Origin: Parabacteroides faecis
GTDB taxonomy: Bacteria; Bacteroidota; Bacteroidia; Bacteroidales; Tannerellaceae
NCBI RefSeq assembly: GCF_014647375.1
Contig: NZ_BMPB01000006.1
Span: forward strand, 310,001 to 374,000
DNA length: 64,000 nucleotides
Direction: 5' to 3'
The notes beneath the pieces are model-generated. The model ran no database searches. It had not been told where the DNA came from and worked only from the letters and a program-made list of their open reading frames with translations. Position numbers and translations under genes: made by a program. Below, piece after piece: positions 10,332 through 27,796 of the stretch; position 1 is the first letter of the stretch, and every line of letters starts with the position of its first letter.

Positions 10332-10880
10332 ATGGACGAACAGCTGTTAATTGCCGGATGCAAACGTGGGGAGTCATGGGCTCGTAAAGAGATATACGAG
10401 CTGTATGCTCCTGCCATGATGAGTGTGTGTATGCGGTATGTAAATAACAGGGAAACTGCTCGTGATTTGTTGCAGGATGGATTTATCAAGATATTCACGA
10501 AAATAGGAAGTTATACGGGGAGCGGTGCGTTTCCCGGTTGGGTTCGCAGGGTATTTGTTACTACAGCTCTTGAATATCTGAGAAAAAACGATGCGATCCG
10601 GTTAAGCGTTAATTTTGATGATTGCGGGGAATTGGCGGATGAAGTGGATGTATCGGCATTAGAACGTTTATCTGCCGATGATCTGCATGCCTGTATTGCC
10701 CGTTTGCCGAATGGCTACCGGACGGTATTCAACCTCTATGCGATAGAGGGATATTCTCATAGTGAGATAGCAGAAATGCTACATATCAGTGAAGTAACCT
10801 CGCGAACACAGTTTGTTCGGGCGCGGAAGGTGTTACAAAAAAGTGTTCAATCATTAATCAAGCATGAAAATGCGCAGTGA
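10332..10880 (+). CDS. ECF-type RNA polymerase sigma factor
   Basis: This is 182 residues with two conserved domains. Region 2 runs about 15-80 (EIYELYAPAMMSVCMRYV, TARDLLQDGFIKIF). Region 4 runs about 120-175 (IARLPNGYRTVFNLYAIEGYSHSEIAEML, then SEVTSRTQFVRARKVL). It directs RNA polymerase to a small regulon under control of a membrane anti-sigma factor. Its last 17 bases overlap the next gene, whose N-terminus looks like the anti-sigma partner, so the two are translationally coupled. Confidence 0.92.
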   Translation: MDEQLLIAGCKRGESWARKEIYELYAPAMMSVCMRYVNNRETARDLLQDGFIKIFTKIGSYTGSGAFPGWVRRVFVTTALEYLRKNDAIRLSVNFDDCGELADEVDVSALERLSADDLHACIARLPNGYRTVFNLYAIEGYSHSEIAEMLHISEVTSRTQFVRARKVLQKSVQSLIKHENAQ

Positions 10881-12151: not shown

Positions 12152-13417
12152 ATGAAAAAACTAATGAGTCTGTTCTGTCTGTCGTTGATCTGTTTGTTTT
12201 GCGGATGTAATGATGATATGAAGGTAAAAGAGACAGTTACCTATACGGTGAATAAACCTGTGTATATGTCAGCCAATGCGTTCCGTTCTTCTGTGAAGGT
12301 GAATGCGTTGCCGGAAGAAATTACGCAGCAGGGAAAGATTTGTTTCTATGAAGGTTATCTGTATATGTCAGAACCCGGAAAAGGAATCCATATTATCGAT
12401 AACAGAAATCCTTCGTCACCAGCTTTGGTCGGTTTTATAGAATTGATGGGAAATGCCGATTTGGCTATCCGTAACAATCTGTTATATGCGGATTCGTATG
12501 TCGACCTGGTGTGGTTCGATATCACTAATCCGGCTTTACCGGTGTTGAAGAGTCGGTTGGAAAATGTTTTTCCACAGAGTTTCCCACCGATTGAGGACGG
12601 TATAATAGATTCCGAAGTTTTTTCCGAAGCAGGAAAAGCCAAAGGTATCGTTATAGGCTGGACACAGGAAGAAGTAACGGAAACCTATGAGTATTATAAA
12701 GATGAAATCTACTATAATGATATGGCGACAAATTCCGGTAACAGTAGCGGTGGTTCTTCCACGGGAGTGAATGGTTCTATGTCCCGCTTTGGTCTTTATA
12801 AGGATTATCTGTATGTCGTTTTGAATAATCAGATGGATATTTTCGATCTTTCCGGTGAAGAACCGGTTGTTGCAACTGAAACTATTCCTGTCGGATGGAA
12901 TGTCGAAACGATTTTCAGTTATAAGGAATATATGTTCATGGGAACGCCCACTGGTATGCTGATCTATTCGGTAAAAGACCCGATAAAGCCGGAGTATCAG
13001 TCGGCAATGGTTCATGTGTACGGTTGTGATCCCGTAGTTGTGGAAGATGATATTGCTTATGTGACTGTCCATTCCGGTAATAATTGCGGGCAAAACTTTA
13101 ACGAACTGATCATTTTAGATGTCAGTGATGTAAAAAGTCCGCAACCGATCGTAGCTTATACCATGACAAAGCCTAAAGGACTGGGTATCGATAACGGGAC
13201 TCTTTTCCTTTGTGACGACGGCCTGAAGATTTATAACGCATCAGATCCGCAAACATTGATGGCCAACCGTCTAGCTCATTATTCCGGCATGGAAGGATAT
13301 GATGTGATTCCACATGGGAATGTCTTGATGATGATGGCTGAAGACGGTATTTATCAGTATGACTATTCTGATCTGAAAGAGATCAGGTTGTTGAGTAAGC
13401 TGGCGGTGAAGAAATGA
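12152..13417 (+). CDS. LVIVD-repeat lipoprotein
   Basis: A lipoprotein signal (MKKLMSLFCLSLICLFCGC) leads into repeated units of the LVIVD type: GKGIHIIDNRNPSSPALVG, LVWFDITNPALPVLKS, MLIYSVKDPIKPEYQS and LIILDVSDVKSPQPIVA. These repeats form a predicted beta-propeller at the cell surface or in the periplasm. I prefer the ATG at 12152 over the TTG two codons earlier. It sits 40 bp after the barrel protein and is probably the third gene of the sigma operon. No enzymatic role is indicated; binding is likely. Confidence 0.85.
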   Translation: MKKLMSLFCLSLICLFCGCNDDMKVKETVTYTVNKPVYMSANAFRSSVKVNALPEEITQQGKICFYEGYLYMSEPGKGIHIIDNRNPSSPALVGFIELMGNADLAIRNNLLYADSYVDLVWFDITNPALPVLKSRLENVFPQSFPPIEDGIIDSEVFSEAGKAKGIVIGWTQEEVTETYEYYKDEIYYNDMATNSGNSSGGSSTGVNGSMSRFGLYKDYLYVVLNNQMDIFDLSGEEPVVATETIPVGWNVETIFSYKEYMFMGTPTGMLIYSVKDPIKPEYQSAMVHVYGCDPVVVEDDIAYVTVHSGNNCGQNFNELIILDVSDVKSPQPIVAYTMTKPKGLGIDNGTLFLCDDGLKIYNASDPQTLMANRLAHYSGMEGYDVIPHGNVLMMMAEDGIYQYDYSDLKEIRLLSKLAVKK

Positions 13418-13437
13418 TATAGGAATATATAAATGGG

Positions 13438-13475
13438 AAGAGATGGCGATTATTTGAGTCATCTCTTTTTTTGTT
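13438..13475 (+). terminator. Intrinsic terminator after the LVIVD gene
   Basis: An 8-bp stem (AAGAGATG pairing with CATCTCTT) with a 14-nt loop is followed by a run of T with one G. It lies 20 bp after the LVIVD stop and separates that operon from the FecR-SusCD locus. Confidence 0.75.
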
Positions 13476-13625
13476 TTAAATAGATTGATTGTTTGTTTTC
13501 TAAATGCTTTATTTATAGGTTACTACTGGTCGTACAGATATTAGCTTTTAATTTTATTTTCAAAAAGTTTATTTTTACCCTACCCATTTTTATTCTTTTG
13601 ATTGTAATATGAAAAAAGAATAGAA

Positions 13626-14804
13626 ATGGAATCTGATAAGATATATAAAATCATATTGACAGTCCTGGCAGGCGAAGAAACTCAGGAAGAACACGAACAA
13701 CTTTCTGCATGGTTGAATGAGTCTGAAGAAAATAGGCGGGAATATAGTCAAATCGAGCGACTTTACCAGCTTTCTTCATCTTCGTCTTCAAAAAAAGTCT
13801 CTTCATATTATGATGTAGAGCAGGCGTGGAAGTTTGTTAAAGGCCAAACAATAGATAAAAGAAAATCTTTTATATTCAGAAAATGGATTTCGTATGCAGC
13901 TATGTTGACTCTTTTGTTAACGGCAGGAATGTTCTATCTATATAAACAGCAATTATATTCTCTTTCCAGCCAGGTGAATTTGGAACAACTGAAAGAACCA
14001 ATTCTTCTATTGGACAATGGAGAAACAATCTCTTTGGATAAGGATACTTTTTCAATAGAAAACGAACATACAATTATTCACAAAAAAGCGAAAGTTCTTT
14101 CTTATGTCCCTCAAGAGAAGGAAGAACAAAATATAAAGACAGATAGGAAGAATCGTTTAGTGATACCTAAAGGCAAAACTTACGAATTGAAACTCTCCGA
14201 TGGAACCCATGTGTGGTTAAATTCCGAATCGGAATTAATTTATCCGACCAATTTTACAGGTAATACTCGTGAAGTGATATTGAGGGGAGAGGCCTTTTTT
14301 GATGTTGCAAAAGATGCATCCAAACCTTTTATTGTAGAAAATAATCAAATGAAGATAAAAGTATTGGGTACATCGTTTAATGTATCTGGTTATGTGTCGG
14401 AAAGGTTACAAAATGTCACTTTGGTAAACGGTTCCGTACAAGTTCAGATAGATAACGATTCTGCCTTTCGGATTTCTCCATCGGAACAATTTTCATATGA
14501 TAAAGAAAAACAAACTACAAGTATACAAGTTGTTAATACAGATTTATATACAGCGTGGACTGAAGGAAAGTATATTTTTAAGGATACGAGACTTGAAGAT
14601 ATTTTATCCAAGTTGCAGCGATGGTATGATTTTGAGATAATTTACCTGCAGGAAGAGTTGAAGAATAGGCGTTTTTCAATAGTGATTAATCGTGAAGACA
14701 ACCTGAAAGATGTATTGGAGGTTATAAGCTTCACTTCGAATGTAAAACTTGTGCAAGAAAACAACATAATTAAAGTGAAATATTTAGAGAAAGGAGGAGA
14801 ATGA
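13626..14804 (+). CDS. FecR-family anti-sigma factor
   Basis: This is 392 residues. The cytoplasmic N-terminal region (residues 1-90) contains LTVLAGEETQEEHEQLSAWLNES, typical of sigma-binding FecR domains. One transmembrane helix follows at about 90-110 (WISYAAMLTLLLTAGMFYLY). Next come a periplasmic FecR domain (LVIPKGKTYELKLSDGTHVWLNSES to about residue 285) and a C-terminal DUF4974 domain (LEDILSKLQRWYDFEIIYL). In known systems the SusC STN domain contacts FecR and releases the ECF sigma factor. No sigma gene lies directly upstream; the only local candidate is at 26065-26592 on the other strand. Confidence 0.93.
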   Translation: MESDKIYKIILTVLAGEETQEEHEQLSAWLNESEENRREYSQIERLYQLSSSSSSKKVSSYYDVEQAWKFVKGQTIDKRKSFIFRKWISYAAMLTLLLTAGMFYLYKQQLYSLSSQVNLEQLKEPILLLDNGETISLDKDTFSIENEHTIIHKKAKVLSYVPQEKEEQNIKTDRKNRLVIPKGKTYELKLSDGTHVWLNSESELIYPTNFTGNTREVILRGEAFFDVAKDASKPFIVENNQMKIKVLGTSFNVSGYVSERLQNVTLVNGSVQVQIDNDSAFRISPSEQFSYDKEKQTTSIQVVNTDLYTAWTEGKYIFKDTRLEDILSKLQRWYDFEIIYLQEELKNRRFSIVINREDNLKDVLEVISFTSNVKLVQENNIIKVKYLEKGGE

Positions 14805-14831
14805 AATAAGATAATTATGAAAAACACGAAA

Positions 14832-14858
14832 GAGGTAGTATCTGATACATACTACCTC
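14832..14858 (+). other. Perfect hairpin between fecR and susC
   Basis: GAGGTAGTAT and ATACTACCTC form a 10-bp perfect stem with a 7-nt loop. No T-run follows, so it is not a standard terminator. It may pause transcription, stabilise the susC message or lower read-through from fecR. Confidence 0.55.
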
Positions 14859-14915
14859 CATACAACAAATTAAAAACAATAGTATAATAATTTCTAACTT
14901 GTAAATCACAAATTT

Positions 14916-17900
14916 ATGGAAAAAACAGGTATAGGTCTTTTATCTAATACCCAAAAACTCTTAAAAAGGTCGATTTTTATAGTTTCGTTATGTGGTACCC
15001 TTACTGGGGGAGCACTGGACTTATATGCTTCAGAGTCAGTATTTGAACAAAACTATAGTCTGACACTTTCTTATAACAATGCATCCCTGGAACAGGTTTT
15101 GGATGCAATTTCAAAGCAAACAGGCATTAAAATAGCTTATAGTAATGATGTCATTGTAGAGAAACAGCAGATAACCGTCAATATTAAAACGACGGATATA
15201 CGGGAAGCTTTGCGTGTAGTGCTTGGAGATGGATACACGTTTAAACAGATAGATGATTATATTGCAATTGCAAAAACGACTAAGGCGGAATCGACCGTTA
15301 CAAACAGTGTTGCTGACGATCGTGAATGGACTATCCAGGGGCAGGTTGTAGAAAATATAGAACCACCGGTTCCATTAGCAGGAGTGAATGTCATGATCAA
15401 AGGGACAACCATAGGTACGGTGACTGATGTCAATGGATATTTCAGTATCAAAGCCAAGCGAGGTGATATATTGGTATTCAAATATATTGGTTTTAAAGAT
15501 TTTGAACATGTTGTTTCTCGTGCCATAAGTAACTTAACGGTATCTATGAGTTCGGATTCTGAAGAAATTGATGAAATCATCGTAACTGGTTTCTCGTCGG
15601 AAAAGAGAATGAACTCTGTTTCTGCTGTATCTACATTGGATGTTACGAAGAATATGGCAACTAAACCTATCACTTCTTTGTCACAATCTTTACAGGGAGG
15701 TATCACCGGTTTGAATGTATCGCAAAGTTCCGGTCTACCGGGTGCCGATGCTGCTGTTATCAAGATTCGTGGTATCTCCTCTTTGTTGACCAACAACGAC
15801 CCGTTGGTATTGGTGGATGGTATTCCGATGGATATGAACCAGCTGGATCCGAATACGATTGAAAGCGTTACCATATTGAAAGATGCTGCCGCGTCTGCTA
15901 TTTATGGAGCTCGTGCTGCTAATGGTGTGATTGTTGTAAAAACCAAACGTGGTATGCCAGGGAAGGTAAGCGTATCTTATAATGGGTATGTTGGTGTTCA
16001 ACAAGCTACTTATCTTCCAGAAATGGTCGATGCTGCGACTTATATGGAAATGTCGAATGTAGCTAACCAAAATATTGGTGGAGATCCGACTTATTCGCAG
16101 GAAGCAATTAATGCAACCCGCAACCAAATAGATCCGATCAAGTATCCGAATACGGACTGGATGGACTTTATTTTTAACAATGGGTTAATCCATAGTCATT
16201 CAGTAGGTCTTTCTGGTGGTAGTAACCTAGCGCGTTTCGCTTTAACTGTAAATTATTTGAATAACGAAGGATTAGTTGAAAAATCCAAGTTTGACCGTTT
16301 GAATATCCGTGCCAATACGACTGTCAACCTGATGGATAATTTGTCTGTGGATATGGACTTCAATTCATATCGTACGAACAAATATGAGCCGATGTATAGG
16401 GATGGAGCTTATACGTCAGAAATTATTCGGTATTCTTATACAACTCCACCAACAACCATGGGTAGATATCCGATGAAAGAAGGTAACGATATCGTTTACT
16501 ATGGTAATCGTCCGGAACAACGTAACCCAGCTGCTATGTTGGATCGTGGTGGCGAATACAAAGCGTTGGAAGATAATATCAGTATTAACTTGGCTCCTCG
16601 TTGGGAAGTGCTTCCTAAGTTAATTTTACGAGGACAGTATTCTTATCGTATCAGTAGTACGGCAAATAATAGAAAAAGACGTGCTTACAATTTCTTTGAT
16701 TACGAAACGGATGGATTTTTGCAGACCTGGAGTGCTATTAATGAGGCAGGTAAAGATCGAACCAGTTATTATTACATTGGCGGTACGGCTGAATATACGT
16801 TAGAAAAGGACAAACACCGTTTGTTTGCGATTGGAGGTTACAACCAAGAGCTGACCAATAAAGGTGACTGGGATCAATGGTCAATGGTATCTATGTTTCT
16901 GAAAGCCAATTATACATTCAACGACCGTTATCTGATTGAAGGTACTGTACGTCGTGATGGTTCTTCACGTTTTGGTAAAGGCCACAAATTTGGAGTATTC
17001 CCTTCTGTCGGTTTGGGATGGAATTTGCATGAAGAAAACTTTATAAAGAATAATCTGAAGTTTGTGAATAATTTCAAGGTCAGAGGGTCATTTGGTACAT
17101 TGGGTAATGAAAATATTGATAAGCTATATAAATATCAAAACCTGATTGATGCGGGTAATGGTAATGAAACGGTATTCGGTAATCCGAACCTGACTTGGGA
17201 AACGATTCAGATGTTCAATGTGGGTGCGGACATCCGTTTGTTCAAAGATTTGGATATTACGATTGACTATTATAACAAACTGACCAAAGACTTGATTCTT
17301 GAACCTCCTATCTCTTTCATTGGTGGAACTCAAAAAGTTTTCTTGAACTCCGGCCAATTGAGAAATAGAGGTTGGGAAATTGACTTGAATTATGGTAAGC
17401 AGTTGACTAAAGATTTCGGATTTAATATTCATGGTGGTTTAAGCCACAACGAGAATGAAATCGAAGAATTGTTTGGCGGACCGTATTATAATGATAATAA
17501 TACTACTATTCATCAAGAAGGATATGCTTTGAATAGTTATCTGGTTTATCCAACTGCCGGTTTGTTACAAGAAAGCGATTTTACGAAAAATGCAGATGGT
17601 AAGTGGATTCCTAAAGAAGGAGTTGTTATTTGGGACGGTCAGCAGCCTGGTGATATCCATTACATAGACCAAAATAAGGATGGAGAGATTACAGCTGACG
17701 ACCGTGTGATTCGTGGAGACGAACAACCGTCGTTGAACTACTTTGCCAATATTTCATTAGATTGGAAAAAATGGAGTTTGGAAGTTCTGTTCCAAGGGGT
17801 AACTGGGGTAGATGCTTACTATTCGGCTCCTTATTCATTCGGTCTGGATATAACGGGAGATGGTTTGGTTCCATTGGCAGCACAAAAAGACTATTGGACA

Positions 17901-18206
17901 CCGACCAATACCGATGCACGTTATCCGCGTTTGGCTCCGAATGCAACGTATGGAAATAACGGACATCAGTCTGATTTCTGGTTCTTTGATGCCGGTTATT
18001 GCCGTGTAAAATATATCCAGCTAGGATATACATTCGATCAACTCGGATTGAAGAAATTGGGTATTTCCAGTGTTCGTTTGTATGTAAATGCGCAGAATCC
18101 GTTTACATTTACTAAGAGTGACCTGGTAGATCCGGAAAGTAGAGGTCAGTTGGCTTCTTATCCGTTGGTGAAGACCTACTCTTTTGGTGTTAATTTGAAT
18201 TTCTAA
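14916..18206 (+). CDS. SusC/RagA-family TonB-linked transporter with STN signalling domain
   Basis: This is 1096 residues. An export signal is followed by an STN domain at about 48-118 (YNNASLEQVLDAISKQTGIKIAYS). Next come a carboxypeptidase-like domain at about 142-215 (LAGVNVMIKGTTIGTVTDVNGYFSI), a TonB box and plug (DEIIVTGFSSEKR, LVLVDGIPMDMNQL), and a barrel ending SFGVNLNF. STN domains signal ligand binding to a FecR anti-sigma, so this is a transducing receptor paired with the FecR gene just upstream. With the SusD gene 13 bp downstream it forms the glycan-import pair of the locus. The glycan is unknown. Confidence 0.96.
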   Translation: MEKTGIGLLSNTQKLLKRSIFIVSLCGTLTGGALDLYASESVFEQNYSLTLSYNNASLEQVLDAISKQTGIKIAYSNDVIVEKQQITVNIKTTDIREALRVVLGDGYTFKQIDDYIAIAKTTKAESTVTNSVADDREWTIQGQVVENIEPPVPLAGVNVMIKGTTIGTVTDVNGYFSIKAKRGDILVFKYIGFKDFEHVVSRAISNLTVSMSSDSEEIDEIIVTGFSSEKRMNSVSAVSTLDVTKNMATKPITSLSQSLQGGITGLNVSQSSGLPGADAAVIKIRGISSLLTNNDPLVLVDGIPMDMNQLDPNTIESVTILKDAAASAIYGARAANGVIVVKTKRGMPGKVSVSYNGYVGVQQATYLPEMVDAATYMEMSNVANQNIGGDPTYSQEAINATRNQIDPIKYPNTDWMDFIFNNGLIHSHSVGLSGGSNLARFALTVNYLNNEGLVEKSKFDRLNIRANTTVNLMDNLSVDMDFNSYRTNKYEPMYRDGAYTSEIIRYSYTTPPTTMGRYPMKEGNDIVYYGNRPEQRNPAAMLDRGGEYKALEDNISINLAPRWEVLPKLILRGQYSYRISSTANNRKRRAYNFFDYETDGFLQTWSAINEAGKDRTSYYYIGGTAEYTLEKDKHRLFAIGGYNQELTNKGDWDQWSMVSMFLKANYTFNDRYLIEGTVRRDGSSRFGKGHKFGVFPSVGLGWNLHEENFIKNNLKFVNNFKVRGSFGTLGNENIDKLYKYQNLIDAGNGNETVFGNPNLTWETIQMFNVGADIRLFKDLDITIDYYNKLTKDLILEPPISFIGGTQKVFLNSGQLRNRGWEIDLNYGKQLTKDFGFNIHGGLSHNENEIEELFGGPYYNDNNTTIHQEGYALNSYLVYPTAGLLQESDFTKNADGKWIPKEGVVIWDGQQPGDIHYIDQNKDGEITADDRVIRGDEQPSLNYFANISLDWKKWSLEVLFQGVTGVDAYYSAPYSFGLDITGDGLVPLAAQKDYWTPTNTDARYPRLAPNATYGNNGHQSDFWFFDAGYCRVKYIQLGYTFDQLGLKKLGISSVRLYVNAQNPFTFTKSDLVDPESRGQLASYPLVKTYSFGVNLNF

Positions 18207-18219
18207 GCTAGATTGTATC

Positions 18220-19884
18220 ATGGAATTAAAAAATATTTTCAGTAAAAAGGTTTTGACCTTACTTTCTGCATCCATGTTGTTTTGCGGATGCGAAGATTTC
18301 TTGACACGCGACCATCCGACTGCAATTACCGATGACGATTTTTGGGGTACGGTTAATGAGTGTAATGCAGCATTTGGACAATGTAAATATTGGCCACGAG
18401 GTACCTATCATTACGATGCTCCCTACTTCTCATTGGTTCACTTGGAAGGGGCTACCGACAATATGTATTGGTCGGGTAACTTCAAGGGTGAAATTGCCAA
18501 CTTGGGAAATGGTTCGGCTACTACCACTACGGGTGGGTATATGAATGATTTGTGGACACAATACTATTTGCGTATTCGTCGTTGCAACCGTTTCTTGGAA
18601 CATGTGGACGCCGCCTATTTTGTAGATGAAAAAGAACGGGAGAGAATGATTGCCGATGTCCGTGTTTGGCGTGTTTGGTATCATATCCAGTTGTTGATGT
18701 ATTATGGAATGAATGATGGTATTCCAATTCAGGATAAAGTGTTGAATGGTGATGAAATTTATAAAGGCCGCAATACGATTGATGAATGTTTAGACTTTAT
18801 CAATAACGAATTGGATGCGGTGATTGCTATTCAGGATCCGGAGGGGAAAGTTTTCCCGTTTGTGTGGGATAGAGACCGTCGCGATCGTATGTGTAAAGCA
18901 TACGCATTGGTGTTGAAAATGGATGTGAATTTGCAGTTTAAACGCTATGATGTAGCCAAGGCGGCCGCTAAGGCGATTATTGATAATCCGGATAATAATT
19001 TTTCTTTGTATTACAGCGAAGAAACGGATGATGATCCGGGCAAGCACTATCGTGATATGTTTCGTTATAAAGGTCAGGATAATAAAGAACGTATCATGTA
19101 TATAAGCAGTGGTTGTTCGGAAGCTTGGTTCCGTAATGCTCCGCAGAGCTTGAGCGGACAGGGGGCTGCCAGTGTTTTGAGGTCGTTAGTAGATGAATAT
19201 GAAACAGCAGATGGTGTCGCTTTGAAAGACCTGCCTGCTGCTGAACGGGAAAAATTGGAAAAGAACCCATTAGAGGTAACACGCGATCCGCGTCTGAAAG
19301 CAACAGTAGTGGTACCAGGTGATAATACCTCTTTCCAAAATTACGTATATGAGCCGTTCAAAGATGGTGGTGCTGACCAAGTAGGTAAAGTGGGGGCTTC
19401 TCGTACCGGTTACTGGGTTAAGAAGTTCTTGGACGAACAAGACAGAGCCAGCGGTAGCGGTAGCTTGTATTTCCCGTTGTATCGTTATGCTGAAGTATTA
19501 TTGAGCTATGTAGAGTGTTTGGTAGAAACAGGTGATTGGCAGAATCCGGATGTTGAAAAATACATCAACATGATTCGTAACCGCGCTGGTATGCCGAATA
19601 TGAACAAAGCAGTTTATAATACTCAAGAAAAAGTACGTGAACTGTATCGTCGCGAACGTCGTGTAGAACTTGCATTTGAAGGAAAACGCTACTTCGATAT
19701 TCGTCGTTGGAGCATTGGTAATGAAACCATGAATGGACCGGCTTTGGGTGCTTGGAATCCGACAACCAATGCGTATGTTCAGGTAGAAAACCGTGCTTGC
19801 ACATTCCCGAAATACAATGCATGGCCTATCCCTCAAGCAGAGGAAACGGCTAATCCGAATATTGAACAGCCGACAGGGTGGTAA
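18220..19884 (+). CDS. SusD/RagB-family surface glycan-binding lipoprotein
   Basis: This is 554 residues with a lipoprotein signal (lipid Cys24, CGCEDFLTRDHP). The N-terminus has the usual SusD opening (AITDDDFWGTVNECNAAFGQC). The C-terminal half carries the family's conserved stretch (YFPLYRYAEVLLSYVECLVETGD, MIRNRAGMP, VRELYRRERRVELAFEGKRYFDIRRW). SusD binds glycan as the lid of the SusC channel. It follows susC after 13 bp and is certainly in the same transcript. Confidence 0.96.
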   Translation: MELKNIFSKKVLTLLSASMLFCGCEDFLTRDHPTAITDDDFWGTVNECNAAFGQCKYWPRGTYHYDAPYFSLVHLEGATDNMYWSGNFKGEIANLGNGSATTTTGGYMNDLWTQYYLRIRRCNRFLEHVDAAYFVDEKERERMIADVRVWRVWYHIQLLMYYGMNDGIPIQDKVLNGDEIYKGRNTIDECLDFINNELDAVIAIQDPEGKVFPFVWDRDRRDRMCKAYALVLKMDVNLQFKRYDVAKAAAKAIIDNPDNNFSLYYSEETDDDPGKHYRDMFRYKGQDNKERIMYISSGCSEAWFRNAPQSLSGQGAASVLRSLVDEYETADGVALKDLPAAEREKLEKNPLEVTRDPRLKATVVVPGDNTSFQNYVYEPFKDGGADQVGKVGASRTGYWVKKFLDEQDRASGSGSLYFPLYRYAEVLLSYVECLVETGDWQNPDVEKYINMIRNRAGMPNMNKAVYNTQEKVRELYRRERRVELAFEGKRYFDIRRWSIGNETMNGPALGAWNPTTNAYVQVENRACTFPKYNAWPIPQAEETANPNIEQPTGW

Positions 19885-19898
19885 ATAAATTTCAAGGT

Positions 19899-19936
19899 AG
19901 TGTATCAAAATTCCGTTTGTGGAGTTTTGATACACT
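19899..19936 (+). other. Long hairpin after susD
   Basis: AGTGTATCAAAA and TTTTGATACACT form a 12-bp perfect stem around a 14-nt loop. There is no T-run, so it may slow or partly stop transcription, or protect the susCD message, rather than end it fully. Confidence 0.55.
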
Positions 19937-19970
19937 CCTATCAATTCTAATAATTTAAACTTAAAAAAAC

Positions 19971-20840
19971 ATGAAAGCTATGAAATTAATACTCCCAGTC
20001 TTATCCTATTTCCTGCTCTTTATGGCGCAGACTGTCAATGCACAATATTATGGCTATGAAGACGATTTGGAAATCGTTTTAACTCATAATAATATTGAAT
20101 TCCCTTCACACATTAGTACATTGGATTATTGTGAGATAAAATTGCGAAATAAAAAAGGTCCAGGGTATTTTTTGCCTAAACCGGATCAATGGTATGGTGA
20201 TTTTCATACCATGCAAGAGGATCCTGTTCATTCTATAATCAAAGGTCACTTCCTGAAGGCAGGAACATGTACGATTAATGCCCGGATCGGTGGTTCAGTG
20301 GTGATCTCAAAAAGTTTTGAAATATCTGATCCGTATCTGACAAGTAATAGTACAATTTTACCTTATGGAAAGGAAGAAACGGTTGAAATAGTCAATTTCC
20401 CACGAGACAAAGTGTCTATAACTTGGCTTGTGTCTGATGGTTTGGAGATCGTGTCAGGGCAAGGAACCGAAAAATTAGTATTTACAACTAAAAAGAATAC
20501 TTCCTCCTATGAGTACATTGTTGCTAATGTACAATCGGAAGTTTGGATATTAAGTTTAAGAAATAATGTAAGTATAGTAGGAATACCTCAGGCTGACGAA
20601 ATTCAAGTATCCCGAACCTCTTCCAATATGTTTATTCTGGATGTCGATCAAGAAGTGATGCATTCTTCTCCACTGAAATATGAATTGTATGACCAAGCAA
20701 GAGGCTCTTTAATGCGAAAAGGCATGGTTGAATTAAAAGACGGAGTTTTAAACTTTAATAATCTCCCTAAAGGTATATATGTGTTGAAGTTATATTTGGA
20801 TGAGAAAAATATTAAAACTCGAAAAATACTTATCAATTGA
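19971..20840 (+). CDS. Secreted protein with a T9SS-like C-terminal sorting tail
   Basis: This is 289 residues with a signal peptide (LLFMAQTVNAQYYG). The middle (ILPYGKEETVEIVNFPRDKVSITWLVSDG) looks like immunoglobulin-type beta-sandwich segments. The last 70 residues (LYDQARGSLMRKGMVEL, FNNLPKGIYVLKLYLDE, TRKILIN) fit the pattern of type A Por-secretion sorting domains. It follows SusD in the same direction and may be a surface glycan-binding accessory protein in the place SusE usually holds. I recognise no named family for the body. Confidence 0.7.
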   Translation: MKAMKLILPVLSYFLLFMAQTVNAQYYGYEDDLEIVLTHNNIEFPSHISTLDYCEIKLRNKKGPGYFLPKPDQWYGDFHTMQEDPVHSIIKGHFLKAGTCTINARIGGSVVISKSFEISDPYLTSNSTILPYGKEETVEIVNFPRDKVSITWLVSDGLEIVSGQGTEKLVFTTKKNTSSYEYIVANVQSEVWILSLRNNVSIVGIPQADEIQVSRTSSNMFILDVDQEVMHSSPLKYELYDQARGSLMRKGMVELKDGVLNFNNLPKGIYVLKLYLDEKNIKTRKILIN

Positions 20841-20942
20841 AAAGATGGTTTGCTAGTAATTACTTAGTTAAAACCCGGCATAGCATTGTTACTGTGCCTT
20901 AGATTATAATACCATAAGTGCATTCACAAAATTCTGGAAGGT

Positions 20943-21366
20943 ATGGTTGAATTTGAACCTGCTAACCCAAGACATAGAGAACGATTATACGACAGAAGTA
21001 TCACCGTAGGGAAAACATCACGCAACGAAGACATCGCGAAACGGATTGTAGAGGAAGGATCGGAAATAAAGTATGATACTTTATTATCCATTATCAACCA
21101 GATGATCGTATAATCCGCGAAATGTTACAAAACGGCACTAGCGTATTGACCGGAGTTTGCTAGTATACTCCGAGCGTAACGGGGCTATGGAATAGTTCTA
21201 CAGAGAAGTTTAATTCCGAGAAACATGAGATTTCAGTCAGCATGAGCCCTTCAGCCGAGTTGCGAAAAGCTCTTTCACATTATTGAAAGCTCCGCGTGTG
21301 ATTGAATATGAGCATACTTTACGTATAGGCAATGGTGGAGGTAGCGATCGTCCGGAAATCGAATAA
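20943..21366 (+). pseudogene. Decayed HU/DUF4469-type DNA-binding protein gene
   Basis: Three frames join into one familiar protein. 20943-21113 encodes EPANPRHRERLYDRSITVGK, then IAKRIVEEGSEIKYDTLLS. A frame change near 21110 leads to IIREMLQNGTSVLTGVC, an in-frame TAG at 21161, then YTPSVTGLWNSS and HEISVSMSPSAELRKALSH. Another frame change near 21280 leads to APRVIEYEHTLRIGNGG and a stop at 21364. The order matches Bacteroidetes HU-like proteins with a DUF4469 end. At least two frameshifts and one stop make it non-functional. The rest of 20841-21451 shows no other gene. Confidence 0.7.
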
Positions 21367-21451
21367 AACGGTTACGGGAAAAATTTGACTTGGTGGCTGA
21401 AGAGGGGAATCCTTTTTGTTGATTCATTATTTAAATTGAAATAAGAAGTTT

Positions 21452-22654
21452 ATGAATAAAGGTGTTTATCAATGCGTTTTGTTAGTTCTGTTTTTTAGTG
21501 GTATGGTGGCTTGCTCAGATCGCTCGAAACAAACAGTGCCTTTTGAGTGTATGCTGGAAGGAGAAGTGAAAGGGTGGTCGGAGTGTAGTAGCTTGGCATT
21601 GATAGAAGCGGAGAAAAGGGAGGAGGCTGTTCCGGTGGTGTCGATACCGGTTGTCGGAGGAAAATTCGAATATACATTTCGCGACAGTGTCAATCGTCTG
21701 TATCAATTGTACGGTAAGTTTGATGAGGGTAACCGCCGCCGACGTGTTGAGTTTATTTCAGAGAAAGGGAAACTATTTGTAGAATTGTCGCGGGATGAGG
21801 AAGAACTGATTTCACAAATCCGTACGGATTTACCTTTTAACAAGGAGCTGCAATTGGTTGCTGATAGTTCCATAGCGGTAAAATTGTTTACCAAACGCAA
21901 ACAAATGAAAGCAGATGGATTGTACTACCTCTCGGAAGAATATAAGGAGTTGTCGGAAGCTGCCAAGCAGTTGGAAGGGGAGATTTTTTTCAGCCAGAAT
22001 CCGGAGAGGGAACGATTGTTTGAGTATGTCCGTACGCATCCGACATTTACCGGATTCTGCCTTTATAAATGGTTGTTGTTGAAGAATGTCGGACCGTTTT
22101 TATCTTTCCCGTCTGATCCGAACATACCGGTTTTAAAAGAAATCTATGAAACGGTGTATAAGGAGAAATATACCGATCATCCTTATCAGAAAGAGATAAA
22201 AGATATGTTGGGTAGTTTGGATGTGAAGGAAGGAGCTTCTTTTGTTGATTTTGTCGCTCCTGATTTAAATGGGAATCAGTATCGCTTGTCGGATTTGATA
22301 AAAGGAAAGTATGCACTGTTAGACTTGTGGGCTTCCTGGTGCGGACCCTGCCGTTCCTATTCCAAAGATATGAAACCCGTATATGAAAGGTATAAAAATC
22401 GGGGATTCACGGTTGTAGGCGTGGCTCGGGAGGTGAATGATACGGAGGCCATGCGAAGGGCGATTGAGAAAGATGGATACCCTTGGATCAATCTGTTTGA
22501 TTTGAATGATCAGGTCGGAGTTTGGACAAAATATGGTGTGTTGAGTGCCGGCAGGCGTTTGTTGATCAATCCGACGGGTAAAATCCTGGCTTTGGACCCG
22601 CAATCCGAAGAGGTAGAAAAGTTGTTGGAAAAATATTTAAACAAAACATTATAA
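21452..22654 (+). CDS. TlpA-like thioredoxin lipoprotein with DUF4369-type N-terminus
   Basis: This is 400 residues. A lipoprotein signal (SGMVAC, lipid Cys21) is followed by a DUF4369-like beta domain (about 30-130), a helical linker, and a thioredoxin fold from about 265 with WCGPC at 296-300. It probably acts in the periplasm on disulfides. One oddity: where thioredoxins carry the cis-proline opposite the active site, this protein reads VLSAGRRLLIN, with Gly in place of Pro. That may weaken or change redox activity. It lies inside the SusCD locus, 10 bp before the DUF4838 gene. Confidence 0.86.
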   Translation: MNKGVYQCVLLVLFFSGMVACSDRSKQTVPFECMLEGEVKGWSECSSLALIEAEKREEAVPVVSIPVVGGKFEYTFRDSVNRLYQLYGKFDEGNRRRRVEFISEKGKLFVELSRDEEELISQIRTDLPFNKELQLVADSSIAVKLFTKRKQMKADGLYYLSEEYKELSEAAKQLEGEIFFSQNPERERLFEYVRTHPTFTGFCLYKWLLLKNVGPFLSFPSDPNIPVLKEIYETVYKEKYTDHPYQKEIKDMLGSLDVKEGASFVDFVAPDLNGNQYRLSDLIKGKYALLDLWASWCGPCRSYSKDMKPVYERYKNRGFTVVGVAREVNDTEAMRRAIEKDGYPWINLFDLNDQVGVWTKYGVLSAGRRLLINPTGKILALDPQSEEVEKLLEKYLNKTL

Positions 22655-22663
22655 AGGATTTGT

Positions 22664-24562
22664 ATGAAGAAGAAAGTTTTAAGCTGTTTGATTTTGTGTT
22701 GTGGACTTCTTTGTTCTGGTTTTTTACAAGCAAAAAAGTCGTTTTTACTTGAAGGTGCATATATTGTTACAAGCGATTCATCGACAAACACAGTTCGTTT
22801 GGCAGCTGTGGAATTGCAGTATTTTATTTGGAAGACGACTGGTTTTAAGCCGGAGATTACTTCGCGGATTCCTGTCGGTTCAAAAGGAATCTTTGTTGGT
22901 CGTAGCCGGTATACCGAGGCTATGCAATTGGCGGACAAGCCGTTTGGCGAACAGGAATATCTGATTGATGTGACTCCGGAACGTATTGTGTTGATGGGAC
23001 AAGATGAGGATTTTCAGTCGGAAGCAGAACGGAATAAAGGACGCGACAATAATGGTATTAGTCCGGAAAAGGATAGGCCAGTGTTGGATTATGGTCTTGT
23101 GACAGGTGATGATTCAGTAAATGGATTGATGGTTCCCCTACCTTCTATTTATGATGCACAGGGTACTTGTTATGCTGTATATGATTTTATTGAACGCTTT
23201 TTAGGTGTTCGTTTTTTCGGACCAAGTCCGGAAAATGTTTTTATACCAGAGGCTCGAAAGATTAAAGTCGCTTGTCAACAGATACGACGTGCTCCGGCTA
23301 TCAAGTATCGTCATGGGACCTACACATTTGAATGGCCGATCGTTAAAGAGCAGTATATGGGAGCCACCGGTGATATGCAGCAGCTGTTTATCCGCCGCCT
23401 ACGTATGGGAGGACGTAAATGGGCTGCCAATCATGCCTTTACCGGCTATCAAGATCGTTTTCTGCGAAAGAATCCGAAAAGACCGGAATTGTTTGAATCT
23501 TATCATCCGGAATATTTTGCCAAGGGAAGGAACGGAGGAGCTTCGGAACGGCAGTTTTGCTATACCAATCCGGGGTTTATCCGGCAGGTAGCCGAAGATG
23601 CTGTTCGGTATTTTAGAGAGGGTAAGACCTTTGCCGAACAGATTGCCTTAGGTGACTATTTTGCTATTGTCCCGCTGGATAATGCGAATTGGTGTACTTG
23701 CGAGGAATGTCAGATGCAGCTTGCTCTAGACAAAGCGAATATCATTGGTTCGCATTTCAATTGTGGCACGGCCACCCATTATATATGGAATTTCATAAAC
23801 AACGTGGCCAAGGAAGTGAAGAAAGAGAAGATTATGGGCGACAAAAAGCTCACTGCGTTGGCCTATCATGTGTATGCCTATTTGCCGAAAGATATTCAAC
23901 TGGAAGATAATATTGCAGTAGTTCCTTGCCTACATCCTAGAAACTATTGGGTCCCGGGGATGGAAAGAAATGAAATGAAATTTTATAAGGCTTGGATTGA
24001 AGAGAGTAAGAAATCTGGACGTGATGTATTTTTATGGAATTATCTCTGCTTCCCGACAGAAAGAGGGATCATCAGTAATTTTAATGTGTTCCCTGGTTTC
24101 AATATTCATAAATCAGGTGAACAGATCCGGATGTATGCAGCCGATCGGGTGAAAGGGGTTTTCTTCTGCGGAACAGGCGAACAGTTGGATTTTTACATTA
24201 CCATGCGCTTGATGGATGATCCGGCATTGGATATTGATCTGTTAATGGACGAGTTCTTTGACAACTATTTTGGCCAAGCTTCCAAATCCATGAAGGCGTT
24301 TTATACGAAGATCGAATCGGTCTATAGTGATCCGAAGAACTATCCGGAAAACATTCAAACGGAAGAGGCCCAATTTCATCAAACGGAAGAGATTGCCTGG
24401 AGATATTTGGGAACACCAGACGTGATGGACGATTTGCGCCTAACAATCGAGAAGGCTCAAAAGTCGGCTAAAAGTGACCTTGAAAAACGTCGTGTCGAAA
24501 GCTGGGTGAATGGTGTCTGGAAGTATATGTTGAAAGGATATAGCAGTTTTAATCAAAAATAA
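22664..24562 (+). CDS. DUF4838 protein, putative glycan-active
   Basis: This is 632 residues with a signal peptide (LLCSGFLQAKKS). The N-terminal 120 residues (TVRLAAVELQYFIWKTTGFKPEI, GIFVGRS) resemble the alpha-glucuronidase-like domain that precedes catalytic barrels in carbohydrate enzymes. The central part holds CYAVYDFIERFLGVRFFGP, then DNANWCTCEECQ with the paired cysteines typical of DUF4838, then a predicted TIM barrel. The family is common in Bacteroidetes glycan loci, but I know of no confirmed reaction. It is followed after 9 bp by the putative hydrolase gene. Confidence 0.82.
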   Translation: MKKKVLSCLILCCGLLCSGFLQAKKSFLLEGAYIVTSDSSTNTVRLAAVELQYFIWKTTGFKPEITSRIPVGSKGIFVGRSRYTEAMQLADKPFGEQEYLIDVTPERIVLMGQDEDFQSEAERNKGRDNNGISPEKDRPVLDYGLVTGDDSVNGLMVPLPSIYDAQGTCYAVYDFIERFLGVRFFGPSPENVFIPEARKIKVACQQIRRAPAIKYRHGTYTFEWPIVKEQYMGATGDMQQLFIRRLRMGGRKWAANHAFTGYQDRFLRKNPKRPELFESYHPEYFAKGRNGGASERQFCYTNPGFIRQVAEDAVRYFREGKTFAEQIALGDYFAIVPLDNANWCTCEECQMQLALDKANIIGSHFNCGTATHYIWNFINNVAKEVKKEKIMGDKKLTALAYHVYAYLPKDIQLEDNIAVVPCLHPRNYWVPGMERNEMKFYKAWIEESKKSGRDVFLWNYLCFPTERGIISNFNVFPGFNIHKSGEQIRMYAADRVKGVFFCGTGEQLDFYITMRLMDDPALDIDLLMDEFFDNYFGQASKSMKAFYTKIESVYSDPKNYPENIQTEEAQFHQTEEIAWRYLGTPDVMDDLRLTIEKAQKSAKSDLEKRRVESWVNGVWKYMLKGYSSFNQK

Positions 24563-24571
24563 TAATTTGTC

Positions 24572-26062
24572 ATGAAGACACATTGGATGTTATTAGCTGT
24601 ATTGTTTTTACTCTCTTGTTCGGACGATAATGGTCTGGACAAAAAGGAGCCGGGAACGGATGAGCCGGAAATAGATGTGGTAGAACCTGAATTATACCGG
24701 GCAAACCGTATGTTGATCAAACATGGATTGCAGTTGCAGTGTTGGGTGGCTACCGATAATTATGAATTGGGAGGGAAGGCCGGACAGCCAGCCTATAACC
24801 TGTCGATCCCGGATTGGAAGTTGACGGGATTCACCGGGCCTACTTTTTATGGACCACCTTTGATCAATACATCTTATTTTGAAGAGTTTCCTGATAGCCA
24901 ATGGGCGATGGCGAAAGCTCCTCATGCCGACCAACTGAAAAAAGAGCCGACAGATTATGAAAAGAAAAATGGATTTTTGTCGGAAGATCAATTGAAATAC
25001 CTGGATAATTTGACTACGATCTGCTTTGGGGATGAAGAAGCGTATAAGTTTGAAAATGTGAAAATCCTGAAAGCTTGGTATGATGTTGCCCGAAGACTGT
25101 ATCCGGATGCATTACTTCATAATAATCAATATGCTGGTCAATGGAGTAGAGCGGATATGTGTACGTATATTCAGGTAGCTAAACCGGACTTGATCACGTA
25201 TGATTGGTATTATTTCCATACGTGGGATTCGGATAATTATATTGGGGCAAGAGATATGGCTGCCCATCTGTATGAGTACCGCGATTTGGCTTTGGGAGGA
25301 TGGAATGGTGATAAAAAGGATTATCTGGCATTCGGACAGTATACACAAGGTTTTGTTAATGAAGGAACTTATAAGTTAACAGAGTCGCAATTGCGTTTAT
25401 ATTATTACATGACATGGACTTTTGGTGGAAAATGGTTGAATTGGTTCCGTTTTTTACAAGGAGATGGCTATGGAGGACAAACAGCGCCGACCGATTGGTC
25501 TTTATTGTTGGAAAACGGTATGCCCGGACAACCGACCAGGTACATGGATTGGGTGAATCAATGTAATCGGGAAAGTCTGTATATTGGTGATTATCTGGTT
25601 CGTTTGAAAACGACTGATATCCGTTATGTGGCAGGTACAGACAAATATACAGAAGGAGCTCCGGCTTATGTGTCGGCATTAAATCCTTCTTCTTATTTAA
25701 AAAAGGTATCTGGAAGGATTGTTGTTGAACCGGAAGCTGGTGGCGATGTATATGTGGGTTTTTTCGATGTTATTCCTGAAGAGGAACAAGGAGATCCGAA
25801 CTTCTTTGCAAATAAAGGAAATGCATTCTTTATGTTAACTAATGGGTATGCATCTAAAGTGAAGGAAAATGCAGATGCTTTAACTCAAAAAATTAATTTT
25901 GGCATCGATCTTCCAGAGGCCAATGCAACACAGTGCTTTTGGATTAACCCTCAAACAGGAAAAAGGGAAAAGCTGAAGGCTATCGGTAAAGAGGATAATA
26001 TTACTTATTTCGAGGTTGAATTATGGGGTGGTAGTGGCGCTTTGTTTATGCTTGCTCCCTGA
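24572..26062 (+). CDS. Lipoprotein with putative glycoside-hydrolase-like TIM barrel
   Basis: This is 496 residues with a lipoprotein signal (LFLLSCSDD) and an acidic linker. The body reads like a clan-A-type barrel: ICFGDEEAYKF (possible acid/base Glu pair), ARRLYPDALLHNNQYAG, LITYDWYYFHTWDSD, YYYMTWTFGGKWLNWF and MDWVNQCNRE. A beta-sandwich C-terminus follows (GDVYVGFFDVIPEEE). Fold and catalysis are inferences from these patterns; I cannot assign a GH family. It ends 2 bp before the stop of the convergent sigma gene, so the two transcripts must overlap at their 3' ends. Confidence 0.65.
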   Translation: MKTHWMLLAVLFLLSCSDDNGLDKKEPGTDEPEIDVVEPELYRANRMLIKHGLQLQCWVATDNYELGGKAGQPAYNLSIPDWKLTGFTGPTFYGPPLINTSYFEEFPDSQWAMAKAPHADQLKKEPTDYEKKNGFLSEDQLKYLDNLTTICFGDEEAYKFENVKILKAWYDVARRLYPDALLHNNQYAGQWSRADMCTYIQVAKPDLITYDWYYFHTWDSDNYIGARDMAAHLYEYRDLALGGWNGDKKDYLAFGQYTQGFVNEGTYKLTESQLRLYYYMTWTFGGKWLNWFRFLQGDGYGGQTAPTDWSLLLENGMPGQPTRYMDWVNQCNRESLYIGDYLVRLKTTDIRYVAGTDKYTEGAPAYVSALNPSSYLKKVSGRIVVEPEAGGDVYVGFFDVIPEEEQGDPNFFANKGNAFFMLTNGYASKVKENADALTQKINFGIDLPEANATQCFWINPQTGKREKLKAIGKEDNITYFEVELWGGSGALFMLAP

Positions 26063-26064
26063 TT

Positions 26065-26592
26065 TTATAATTGTAAATGGATGAGGAATAGAATCCACTT
26101 CAAGTCTTTCAACTCTTCCCGCATGATCCGGAATGCTTCTCCAAGGTGGTATTTGACAGTGTTTACTGATATATTAGATATTTCTGATATTTCTTTATAC
26201 CTTAATCCTGTCACACATTTGAGCAAGAATACTTTACGGCACTTTTCGGGTAACTTTTGTAAGGCTTGTTGTACTTCTTTTTGATAGATAAAATCCTCTT
26301 CTTCATTGAGTTGGTCTTTCCATTCTTCAGAGAGAGTTGTTATGAAATCATCTTTAATGATTTCCGATTTGTAGTAATTGATACAACTGTTTTTTATTGA
26401 ACGGTAAGCATATGGTAAAAAAGTTTCTTGGGTTACGTTCAGGTGTTTTTTCTCCCAAATAGAGATGAAAAACACCTGAACGATATCTTCCCTCACTTGG
26501 CTATCTATAATGTATTTACCTGCGTAATTGCATAATAGCAAGTAATGTTCCCGGAATAATTTTTCGAATGCTTGTCCGTCTGTTATTAACAT
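26065..26592 (-). CDS. ECF sigma factor, probable partner of the distant FecR
   Basis: This is 175 residues of the Bacteroides-type ECF family. Region 2 is FEKLFREHYLLLCNYAGKYI and REDIVQVFFISIWEK; region 4 is LQKLPEKCRKVFLLKCVTGLRYKEIS with SVNTVKYHLGEAFRIM. It is the only sigma gene near the FecR/SusCD locus, at its far 3' end on the opposite strand, 2 bp from the last locus gene. I infer that it drives the locus from the fecR promoter. Upstream, at 26703-26921, is an invertible-promoter candidate; between that and the start codon I found no promoter box. Confidence 0.93.
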   Translation of the reverse strand: MLITDGQAFEKLFREHYLLLCNYAGKYIIDSQVREDIVQVFFISIWEKKHLNVTQETFLPYAYRSIKNSCINYYKSEIIKDDFITTLSEEWKDQLNEEEDFIYQKEVQQALQKLPEKCRKVFLLKCVTGLRYKEISEISNISVNTVKYHLGEAFRIMREELKDLKWILFLIHLQL

Positions 26593-26702
26593 AACCAGTT
26601 CTTAATATCTAGTAAGCAAGTATTAATTATAGTATTATCGATCATCTCTATTTTGTAGTATTAATTCTCAGTGGAAATATCAATACTTCTTGGTTTGCAT
26701 AA

Positions 26703-26724
26703 TAGTCCTATAAGAACTAGTGCA
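26703..26724. repeat. Left inverted repeat of a Tsr0667-type invertible element
   Basis: The 22-bp arm matches the right arm at 26900-26921 in inverted orientation with one mismatch (G at 26720 against T). Its core AGTCCTATAAGAACT fits AGTYYYN4GDACT, the consensus reported for sites cut by the B. fragilis tyrosine recombinase Tsr0667 at SusC/SusD loci. Confidence 0.8.
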
Positions 26725-26881
26725 ATTTTTTATTTGTATATTTCTGATTATTAACCAACTCGTGAGATAGTCAATTTTGTAGGAAATAAAGAATGCCTTA
26801 TACTTTATAGAATAATTAACAGAGCGGTAAAAATGTTATAGAATAATTCCCTGAATTTAACTTATTGTTTCAAAAATAGAT

Positions 26882-26889
26882 TATATTTG
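26882..26889 (+). promoter_or_regulatory. -7 box inside the invertible segment
   Basis: TATATTTG matches TAnnTTTG and runs into GCA, as at other boxes in this window. Transcription would start about at the right repeat. No well-spaced -33 box was found; the nearest TTG (26865-26867) is only 14 bp away. Confidence 0.5.
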
Positions 26890-26899
26890 CATTTGCAGG

Positions 26900-26921
26900 T
26901 GCAATAGTTCTTATAGGACTA
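26900..26921. repeat. Right inverted repeat of the invertible element
   Basis: This arm is the inverted partner of 26703-26724. Its core AGTTCTTATAGGACT fits AGTYYYN4GDACT exactly, and each arm is itself an imperfect palindrome, as expected for a tyrosine-recombinase crossover site. Confidence 0.8.
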
Positions 26922-27139
26922 AGATATTTTGTTTTTTAATCTTTCTCTTTTTTTTATCCATAAGTTTCTGTATTTTAAATAGATTACTAATTATATTGTG
27001 GGTTTACGTTACTGTACTGTATACTTCTTAAGCGTTGCTTGTTTTTAACATTCACAAATGTCGTGAATAACTTACCTGAAAATAAACTATCTGTAGGTGA
27101 ATATGTTATTTTAATAGAGACATTAAAATACATAAAACA
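26922..27139 (+). other. Transaldolase leader region
   Basis: This AT-rich gap holds no reading frame of note. A 9-bp A/T-only inverted repeat (TATTTTAAT at 27107-27115 with ATTAAAATA at 27122-27130) lies 9 bp before the transaldolase ATG and could fold in the leader. I found no clear TAnnTTTG box here, so the transaldolase promoter is not located. Confidence 0.4.
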
Positions 27140-27796
27140 ATGAAATTTTTTATCGACACGGCGAACCTGGATCAGATTCGGGAAGCGAATGATTTAGGTG
27201 TATTGGATGGTGTTACGACCAATCCGTCCCTGATGGCTAAAGAGGGGATAAAAGGAGTAGAAAATCAGCGGGCACATTATTTGAAGATCTGCGAGATCGT
27301 GGATGGAGATGTAAGTGCTGAGGTGATATCGACCAATTATGAGGGAATGATAAAAGAAGGGGAGGAACTGGCTGCCCTGAATCCGCATATCGTGGTGAAA
27401 GTCCCTTGTATAGAAGCGGGGATCAAAGCGATCAAACATTTTTCCGATGAGGGAATCCGTACTAATTGTACGCTGGTCTTTTCGCGTGGTCAGGCTCTTT
27501 TGGCTGCAAAAGCAGGAGCCACCTACGTTTCACCATTTGTAGGACGTTTGGATGATATTTCGAGCGACGGGATTGAATTGGTAAGAAAAATCGTAGAGAT
27601 GTATACTTATTATGGGTATGAGACCGAAGTACTTGCCGCTTCCATTCGCAGTACACAGCATATTATCCAGTGCATTGAAGCCGGAGCCGATGTAGCGACT
27701 TGTCCGCTGTCTGCAATAAAAGGTTTGTTGAAACACCCGCTTACCGATAGCGGACTGGCAACCTTCCTGGCCGATTATAAAAAGGTGAACGGATAG
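27140..27796 (+). CDS. fsa: Fructose-6-phosphate aldolase/transaldolase-like enzyme
   Basis: This is 218 residues, the length of the small transaldolase family. It opens [16 protein letters not shown] with [13 protein letters not shown]. The Schiff-base Lys is in IVVKVPC (about residue 86), and [20 protein letters not shown] and [11 protein letters not shown] follow. Members either move dihydroxyacetone units between sugar phosphates or cleave fructose 6-phosphate, and sequence alone does not decide which. It is cytoplasmic and part of central sugar-phosphate metabolism. It stands alone and has no evident link to the neighbouring locus except sharing the intergenic region with the invertible element. 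Confidence 0.92.

Follow-up and report, generated by a model that had tools for sequence, protein, structure and literature searches.

Gene order and an inverted repeat beside an ECF sigma gene

The window (the whole 64-kb stretch of DNA analysed) belongs to a 6.66-Mb genome of the genus Parabacteroides. The region of interest comprises an ECF sigma gene, whose product scores above the TIGR02985 family cut-off, an intergenic region, and the gene fsa on its other side. A block of genes that begins with mutually adjacent FecR, SusC and SusD genes leads up to the sigma gene from the opposite direction (Table 1).

Table 1. Features of the locus, in window coordinates
Feature	Position	Strand	Remarks
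CTACCCATTTT element before FecR	13580..13590	+	common to the sigma-FecR gap of three relatives
FecR-type anti-sigma factor (probable partner of the ECF sigma factor)	13626..14804	+	
SusC (TonB-dependent receptor)	14916..18206	+	
SusD	18220..19884	+	
Four further genes	19971..26062	+	
First of the four	19971..20840	+	weak T9SS tail match, below cut-off
Second of the four	21452..22654	+	thiol-disulfide oxidoreductase-like, below cut-offs
Third of the four	22664..24562	+	DUF4838
Fourth of the four	24572..26062	+	no family found
ECF sigma factor, predicted target	26065..26592	-	TIGR02985, 139.4 bits (cut-off 126.4)
Whole invertible segment (inverton), candidate	26703..26921	.	inverted repeat, shuffle control, kept in four species
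Left arm	26703..26724	+	core 26704-26718, AGTCCTATAAGAACT
Promoter block	26855..26892	+	TTTAAC 26856-26861, 20-nt spacer, TATATTTG 26882-26889
Overlapping TATTTTTG	26871..26878	-	faces the sigma gene in the present orientation
Right arm	26900..26921	-	core 26906-26920, AGTTCTTATAGGACT
fsa leader	27081..27139	+	outside the segment; 36/59 columns identical in four species; possible own fsa promoter
fsa, fructose-6-phosphate aldolase	27140..27796	+	neighbour now faced by the promoter; absent from the sequence-only reading

The intergenic region contains the two 22-bp arms that had been described from the sequence alone, with one mismatch (95% complementary) and 175 nt enclosed. Arms of this quality arose in none of 300 dinucleotide shuffles of positions 26593-27139, in which the best inverted repeat with at most one mismatch reached 17 nt, against the 22 nt observed. 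The arms enclose a promoter within an intergenic region, the arrangement expected of an inverton. The cores had been said to fit the pattern AGTYYYN4GDACT, and each of them does so on both strands, because it is nearly palindromic. This pattern was reportedly defined by Nakayama-Imaohji in 2009 as the consensus of Tsr0667 recombination in B. fragilis. It has six strand matches in the window, four of which are the two cores, compared with a mean of 0.50 and a maximum of 3 in the shuffled window. Genome-wide, the pattern is loose (96+93 strand matches versus 54+57 for the reversed pattern), and the stricter pattern AGTTCTNNNAGAACT occurs at 31 sites versus 0 for its control.

The TATATTTG box lies where it had been placed, just inside the right arm and pointing away from the sigma gene. 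A TTTAAC element 20 nt before it can be read directly from the sequence, and the same element occurs at the same spacing in two other segments that precede sigma genes, C1:417294 (TTTAAC) and C1:514982 (TTAAC; loci outside the window are given as contig and position). Across the full set of 30 aligned boxes, no strict consensus could be derived for the upstream element. As assembled, the promoter block reads toward fsa; inverted, it would read toward the sigma gene, with the box at 26735-26742. This is 143 bp before the start codon at 26592, in agreement with the distance of about 143 bp given earlier. We consider it probable that 26703-26921 acts as an invertible promoter and that the ECF sigma gene is transcribed when the segment is flipped. 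Some transcription of this gene could also occur in the present state, from the overlapping minus-strand TATTTTTG, for which no upstream element was recognised by eye.

Conservation of the segment and of its neighbours

Among 39 genomes of the genus, 16, including our own, match some part of 25900-27300, and the stretches of 14 of these were examined. The order of sigma gene, segment and fsa was found in four of the 14, namely our own genome, G038, G009 (P. gordonii) and G013. Between these species the core bases differ at 0-2 positions, and within each species the left and right cores show 0, 0, 0 and 1 mismatch. The columns identical in all four species amount to 34/38 in the promoter block, 13/15 in the right core and 15/22 in the left arm, compared with 30/150 in the remainder of the segment and 26/143 in the left flank. 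Identity is highest in the cores and the promoter, suggesting that these elements have been kept by selection or recombination. No consensus core was found in the approximately 650 bases upstream of five more distant sigma relatives (G008, G014, G015, G021 and G026; about 58-65% identical).

In the assemblies of all four species the promoter points away from the sigma gene, a result with a two-sided chance of 0.125 if orientation were random, and no inverted state of 26703-26921 was found among them. This is weak evidence that the segment is biased toward the OFF state. The lack of any orientation difference among four species would also be expected of a relic, that is, a segment that once inverted and is now locked OFF, with the sigma factor expressed from elsewhere or not at all. 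We regard such a relic as quite unlikely: the arms are matched within species even though the cores vary between them, and the promoter block is conserved while the remainder of the segment has drifted.

The same uniform orientation means that the promoter faces fsa in all four species, with the fsa start 218 bp past the right arm. The promoter may thus serve fsa now, and the segment could either switch between fsa and sigma or act chiefly as the promoter of fsa. In line with this, the gap between arm and fsa is free of TAnnTTTG boxes in our own genome, G038 and G013, and holds one in G009. Against it, the fsa leader is conserved outside the segment, and G022, which has no segment, carries a similar leader directly before fsa (by eye). 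Both points suggest that fsa probably does not need the segment promoter. Nine further sigma genes also have such a segment upstream, as described below, which argues against a role tied to fsa. We therefore consider this explanation unlikely, although transcription into fsa from the segment promoter is possible in the present state. The leader itself has no TAnnTTTG box; it may be a promoter of another type.

The gene block beyond the sigma gene has a more complex history. In G038, G009 and G013, FecR, SusC and SusD come directly after the sigma gene and share its strand. In our genome, the block 13626-26062 is reversed relative to these three relatives and carries four extra genes, leaving the sigma gene at its far end and FecR no longer directly behind it. 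The four extra genes (19971-26062) had no tblastn match in the examined stretches of the relatives. Identity to the three relatives is 94-98% for fsa and 81-85% for the sigma factor, compared with 68-70% for SusC, 61-62% for SusD and 48-50% for FecR. The block has thus diverged further than the sigma gene and was possibly acquired by exchange. It is variable among the relatives too, with 57, 76 and 75% identity between G009 and G038 for FecR, SusC and SusD, respectively. A flip of the 12.6-kb block by long arms was rejected, since exact inverted matches between 13301-13700 and 25901-26200 reach no more than 10 nt.

It had been proposed from the sequence that one inversion governs a 13-kb locus at a distance. 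This part of the proposal is plausible, because sigma, FecR, SusC and SusD are contiguous in three relatives and the element before FecR is conserved; the split across which control would have to act is peculiar to our own genome. The CTACCCATTTT element, shared with the sigma-FecR gap of the three relatives, supports a descent of the block from the same operon, with the sigma factor presumably acting on it in trans. As a general sigma-FecR motif, CTACCC was rejected, as it occurred in 2/62 gaps versus 3/62 control stretches inside FecR.

Alternatively, the switch may be real while the adjoining FecR-SusC-SusD genes answer to another sigma factor, leaving the present one without a partner. The reversal of the block and its greater divergence fit this scenario, as does a second sigma gene (10332-10880) upstream of the block. 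However, the latter gene is still followed by the same two genes of its own in G009 and G013, both of which also possess the standard operon, and the shared CTACCCATTTT element, which is not a general motif, speaks for a link between the block and the present sigma gene. We take this loss of partnership to be a possibility of some weight, albeit doubtful, and favor control of the rearranged block by the sigma factor next to the segment.

A family of similar segments and a candidate recombinase

We searched the genome for sigma genes of this kind with TIGR02985, which yielded 108 matches; seven partial ones were dropped, leaving 101, of which 68 score above the family cut-off. A pair of consensus cores lies within 1.3 kb upstream of 10 of the 101 genes and downstream of none (0/101), compared with about 0.7 expected upstream by chance from the segment density. 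Seven of the ten genes exceed the TIGR02985 cut-off. Six of their core pairs match at 15/15 bases and four at 14/15, with one arm off by one; the weakest is C7:203635, with one deviating arm and no box. A FecR gene is directly behind eight of the ten, the exceptions being the present sigma gene and C22:25495. The earlier suggestion that the sigma factor, rather than susC, is the likely target was strengthened by the gene order kept in four species, whereas the exceptional status given to such a target was not, since ten sigma genes share this arrangement.

Among the ten segments before sigma genes, six boxes point away from the gene, two point toward it (C11:150856 and C1:417294), and no recognisable TAnnTTTG box was found in the other two, C7:203635 and C4:184187. 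Because boxes in both directions are present, both states of like switches occur within a single assembly.

Pairing of the listed sites genome-wide gave 35 rows and at least 33 loci, five of which were already among the ten before sigma genes. With one further pair left out (C1:730166/732069, 1.9 kb, before sigma C1:732339), at least 27 remain, which together with the ten makes at least 37 segments among the sites listed, a total whose shortfall lies mainly in later contigs. Two sites 35 kb apart (C1:100518/135688) were also left out of the pair counts. SusC-like receptor genes are faced by 18 of the 27 listed segments that are not of the sigma type, and all 19 SusC-like proteins behind those 18 carry Plug and CarbopepD domains. 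In 29 of the 37 listed segments, an outward TAnnTTTG box lies 29-49 bp from a segment end; 200 single-base shuffles gave 2.0 such segments on average and at most 6.

Several arrangements in this family differ from a promoter before a single gene. At C8:279095-279395, a consensus pair precedes by 200 bp a 655-aa frame with response-regulator and HTH_18 domains, and a further regulator may be switched there. The segment C3:209683-210121 has three consensus sites and is flanked by two divergent SusC genes; either of the receptors could be served by its promoter. The 1.9-kb pair C1:730166-732083 has a 439-codon frame inside and ends about 255 bp before the sigma match at C1:732339. Finally, C1:100518 and C1:135688 are identical consensus sites in inverted orientation, the former upstream of the sigma match C1:99932-100408 and the latter downstream of the sigma match C1:135812-136288, and a large inversion between them is possible.

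The segment C10:57039-57610 has the same kind of flanking sites and a FecR-SusC pair on either side, the two pairs being divergent. In the assembled orientation, its open frame continues into the right FecR, giving 317 codons. When the segment is inverted in silico, the N-terminal part joins the left FecR instead (317 codons), and the other FecR keeps a 260-codon frame without it. Both FecR proteins have the expected domains, as do both SusC proteins, which additionally carry an STN signalling domain. P. gordonii has a collinear counterpart of this segment. The N-terminal part that it carries is presumably the sigma-binding end of FecR. Inversion could thus swap this end between two sensors, an arrangement that would amount to an anti-sigma shufflon. 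Together with the segments before sigma and SusC genes, this suggests that the same site family acts at three levels, namely sigma factor, anti-sigma factor and receptor.

We also compared orientations with P. gordonii. The four orthologous segments whose interiors align clearly are all collinear (26703-26921, C10:57039, C4:173390 and C14:173430), and the box of the sigma-type segment C1:652212 lies on the same, far side in both genomes. The box of C13:133496-133725, a segment before a SusC gene, lies near the right end and that of the P. gordonii counterpart near the left, in each case at a distance of 32 bp. Judged by box position, this segment seems to be in opposite states in the two assemblies; the interiors do not align clearly. 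The left flank of the P. gordonii segment aligns with C13:133496 over 4.8 kb at 71% identity, and a right flank at 85% starts only 2.9 kb past the P. gordonii segment. The 0.5 kb adjoining the P. gordonii segment is nearer (81%) to the neighbouring C13:125356, the box of which is likewise at the right end. Interior comparison with the P. gordonii segment gave 25 for the collinear and 31 for the inverted alignment of C13:133496 (shuffled maximum 31), and 35 and 24, respectively, for C13:125356 (shuffled maximum 32). Either of these two neighbours may be the orthologue, which limits the C13 comparison.

Each core being a near palindrome, the sites might instead be operators of a regulator and not recombination sites. 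In 29 of the 37 listed segments, however, the sites are paired and inverted around a promoter that points outward, the box of the C13 segment changes ends between two species, and the consensus is, reportedly, that of Tsr0667 recombination, all of which makes this reading highly improbable.

Our genome contains 23 tyrosine-recombinase matches. The candidate, C3:454683-455840, encodes 386 aa with arm-binding, SAM-like and catalytic domains. Full-length matches to it occur in 19 of 39 genomes of the genus, our own included, as a single copy except for two in G006. Of the 14 genomes that contain four or more strict sites, 13 have such a match (the exception is G022), as do 6 of the 25 others (Fisher p = 4e-5, with a threshold picked after the counts were seen and kinship ignored). 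Among the 19 genomes, 17 were examined around the matching gene, and consensus sites lie near it in 15 of these, within stretches of up to 19.5 kb, and nine of these have two or more, compared with about 5 of 17 expected from the site density of our contigs C1-C8. Within the stretches examined, no site was found near the recombinase gene in our own genome or in G024; in our genome, about 4.7 kb separates the gene from the contig end on the side that in P. gordonii carries a site at 5.4 kb. Relatives in G091 and G259, which belong to another family, are not accompanied by strict sites, and in an order-wide comparison the link between recombinase and sites found no support outside the genus. That C3:454683-455840 is the orthologue of Tsr0667 is a guess. 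A second recombinase, C1:630510-631475, was rejected: its close relatives (74-75%) are confined to G009, G013 and G038, the rest being 43-54% identical, and the sites are more widespread. The remaining integrase matches were inspected for nearby sites only.

Proposed switch and comparison with known systems

From the above, we infer the following sequence of events. A site-specific tyrosine recombinase, possibly the candidate on C3, would act at sites of the AGTTCT-N3-AGAACT type and invert 26703-26921. In the present state, predicted to be OFF, the sigma70-type promoter (TTTAAC, 20 nt, TATATTTG) would read away from the ECF sigma gene; in the flipped, ON state it would be placed before the start codon and drive sigma transcription. 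The FecR partner, encoded across the rearranged block, would then hold the sigma factor until a ligand is sensed, whereupon the FecR-SusC-SusD locus would be expressed. Each cell would thus be either able or unable to respond.

In a broader sense, one site family may make the whole ECF tier phase-variable in Parabacteroides, through up to ten sigma promoters, a swap of the anti-sigma end and the susC promoters, a generalisation to which we give an even chance. Discussions of phase variation in gut Bacteroidota mostly concern surface products such as capsules and SusC/SusD. If the generalisation is true, cells vary in which nutrients are sensed, and not only in which receptors are displayed. 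A sigma switch would constitute a layer above signal sensing, as a sigma-OFF cell could not respond to the substrate at all. This opens the question of why some loci flip the promoter of the receptor and others that of a regulator.

We found no report of invertons that target ECF sigma genes as a class, or of an anti-sigma shufflon, in the portions of the Bacteroidota literature available to us; Nakayama-Imaohji 2009, Jiang 2019, Kuwahara 2004 and Cerdeno-Tarraga 2005 may list such targets. The word 'sigma' is absent from the main text of the inverton surveys PMC10939037 and PMC11892184.

A close parallel is provided by the Tsr0667 regions of B. fragilis (cited in PMC4747536 and PMC11852207), which are reportedly alike in their consensus, their small promoter segments, their SusC/SusD setting and their several dispersed targets. 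They differ in genus, and here the predicted target is an ECF sigma gene and the recombinase is a candidate. In the same species, the genes raised in the ON/ON mutant of IVp-I and IVp-II include the ECF sigma gene BF3407 (PMC4747536). These are invertible promoters too; their invertase is BF2766, of the Tsr19 type, and it is BF3397, not BF3407, that lies directly behind the promoter (same source).

Outside Bacteroidota, the flg switch of C. difficile is an invertible element that lies before the flgB operon (PMC5386303). The likeness to our proposal is that inversion works through a regulator on a larger regulon. In C. difficile that regulator is the sigma factor SigD, and the phylum, the sites and the regulon are unrelated to those considered here. 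Within Bacteroidota, ECF sigma factor, FecR and SusC-SusD form the canonical trans-envelope signalling system. The present locus is made of the same components, but the sigma gene and FecR are separated here by the turning of a block, and the predicted sigma promoter is carried on a probable invertible segment.
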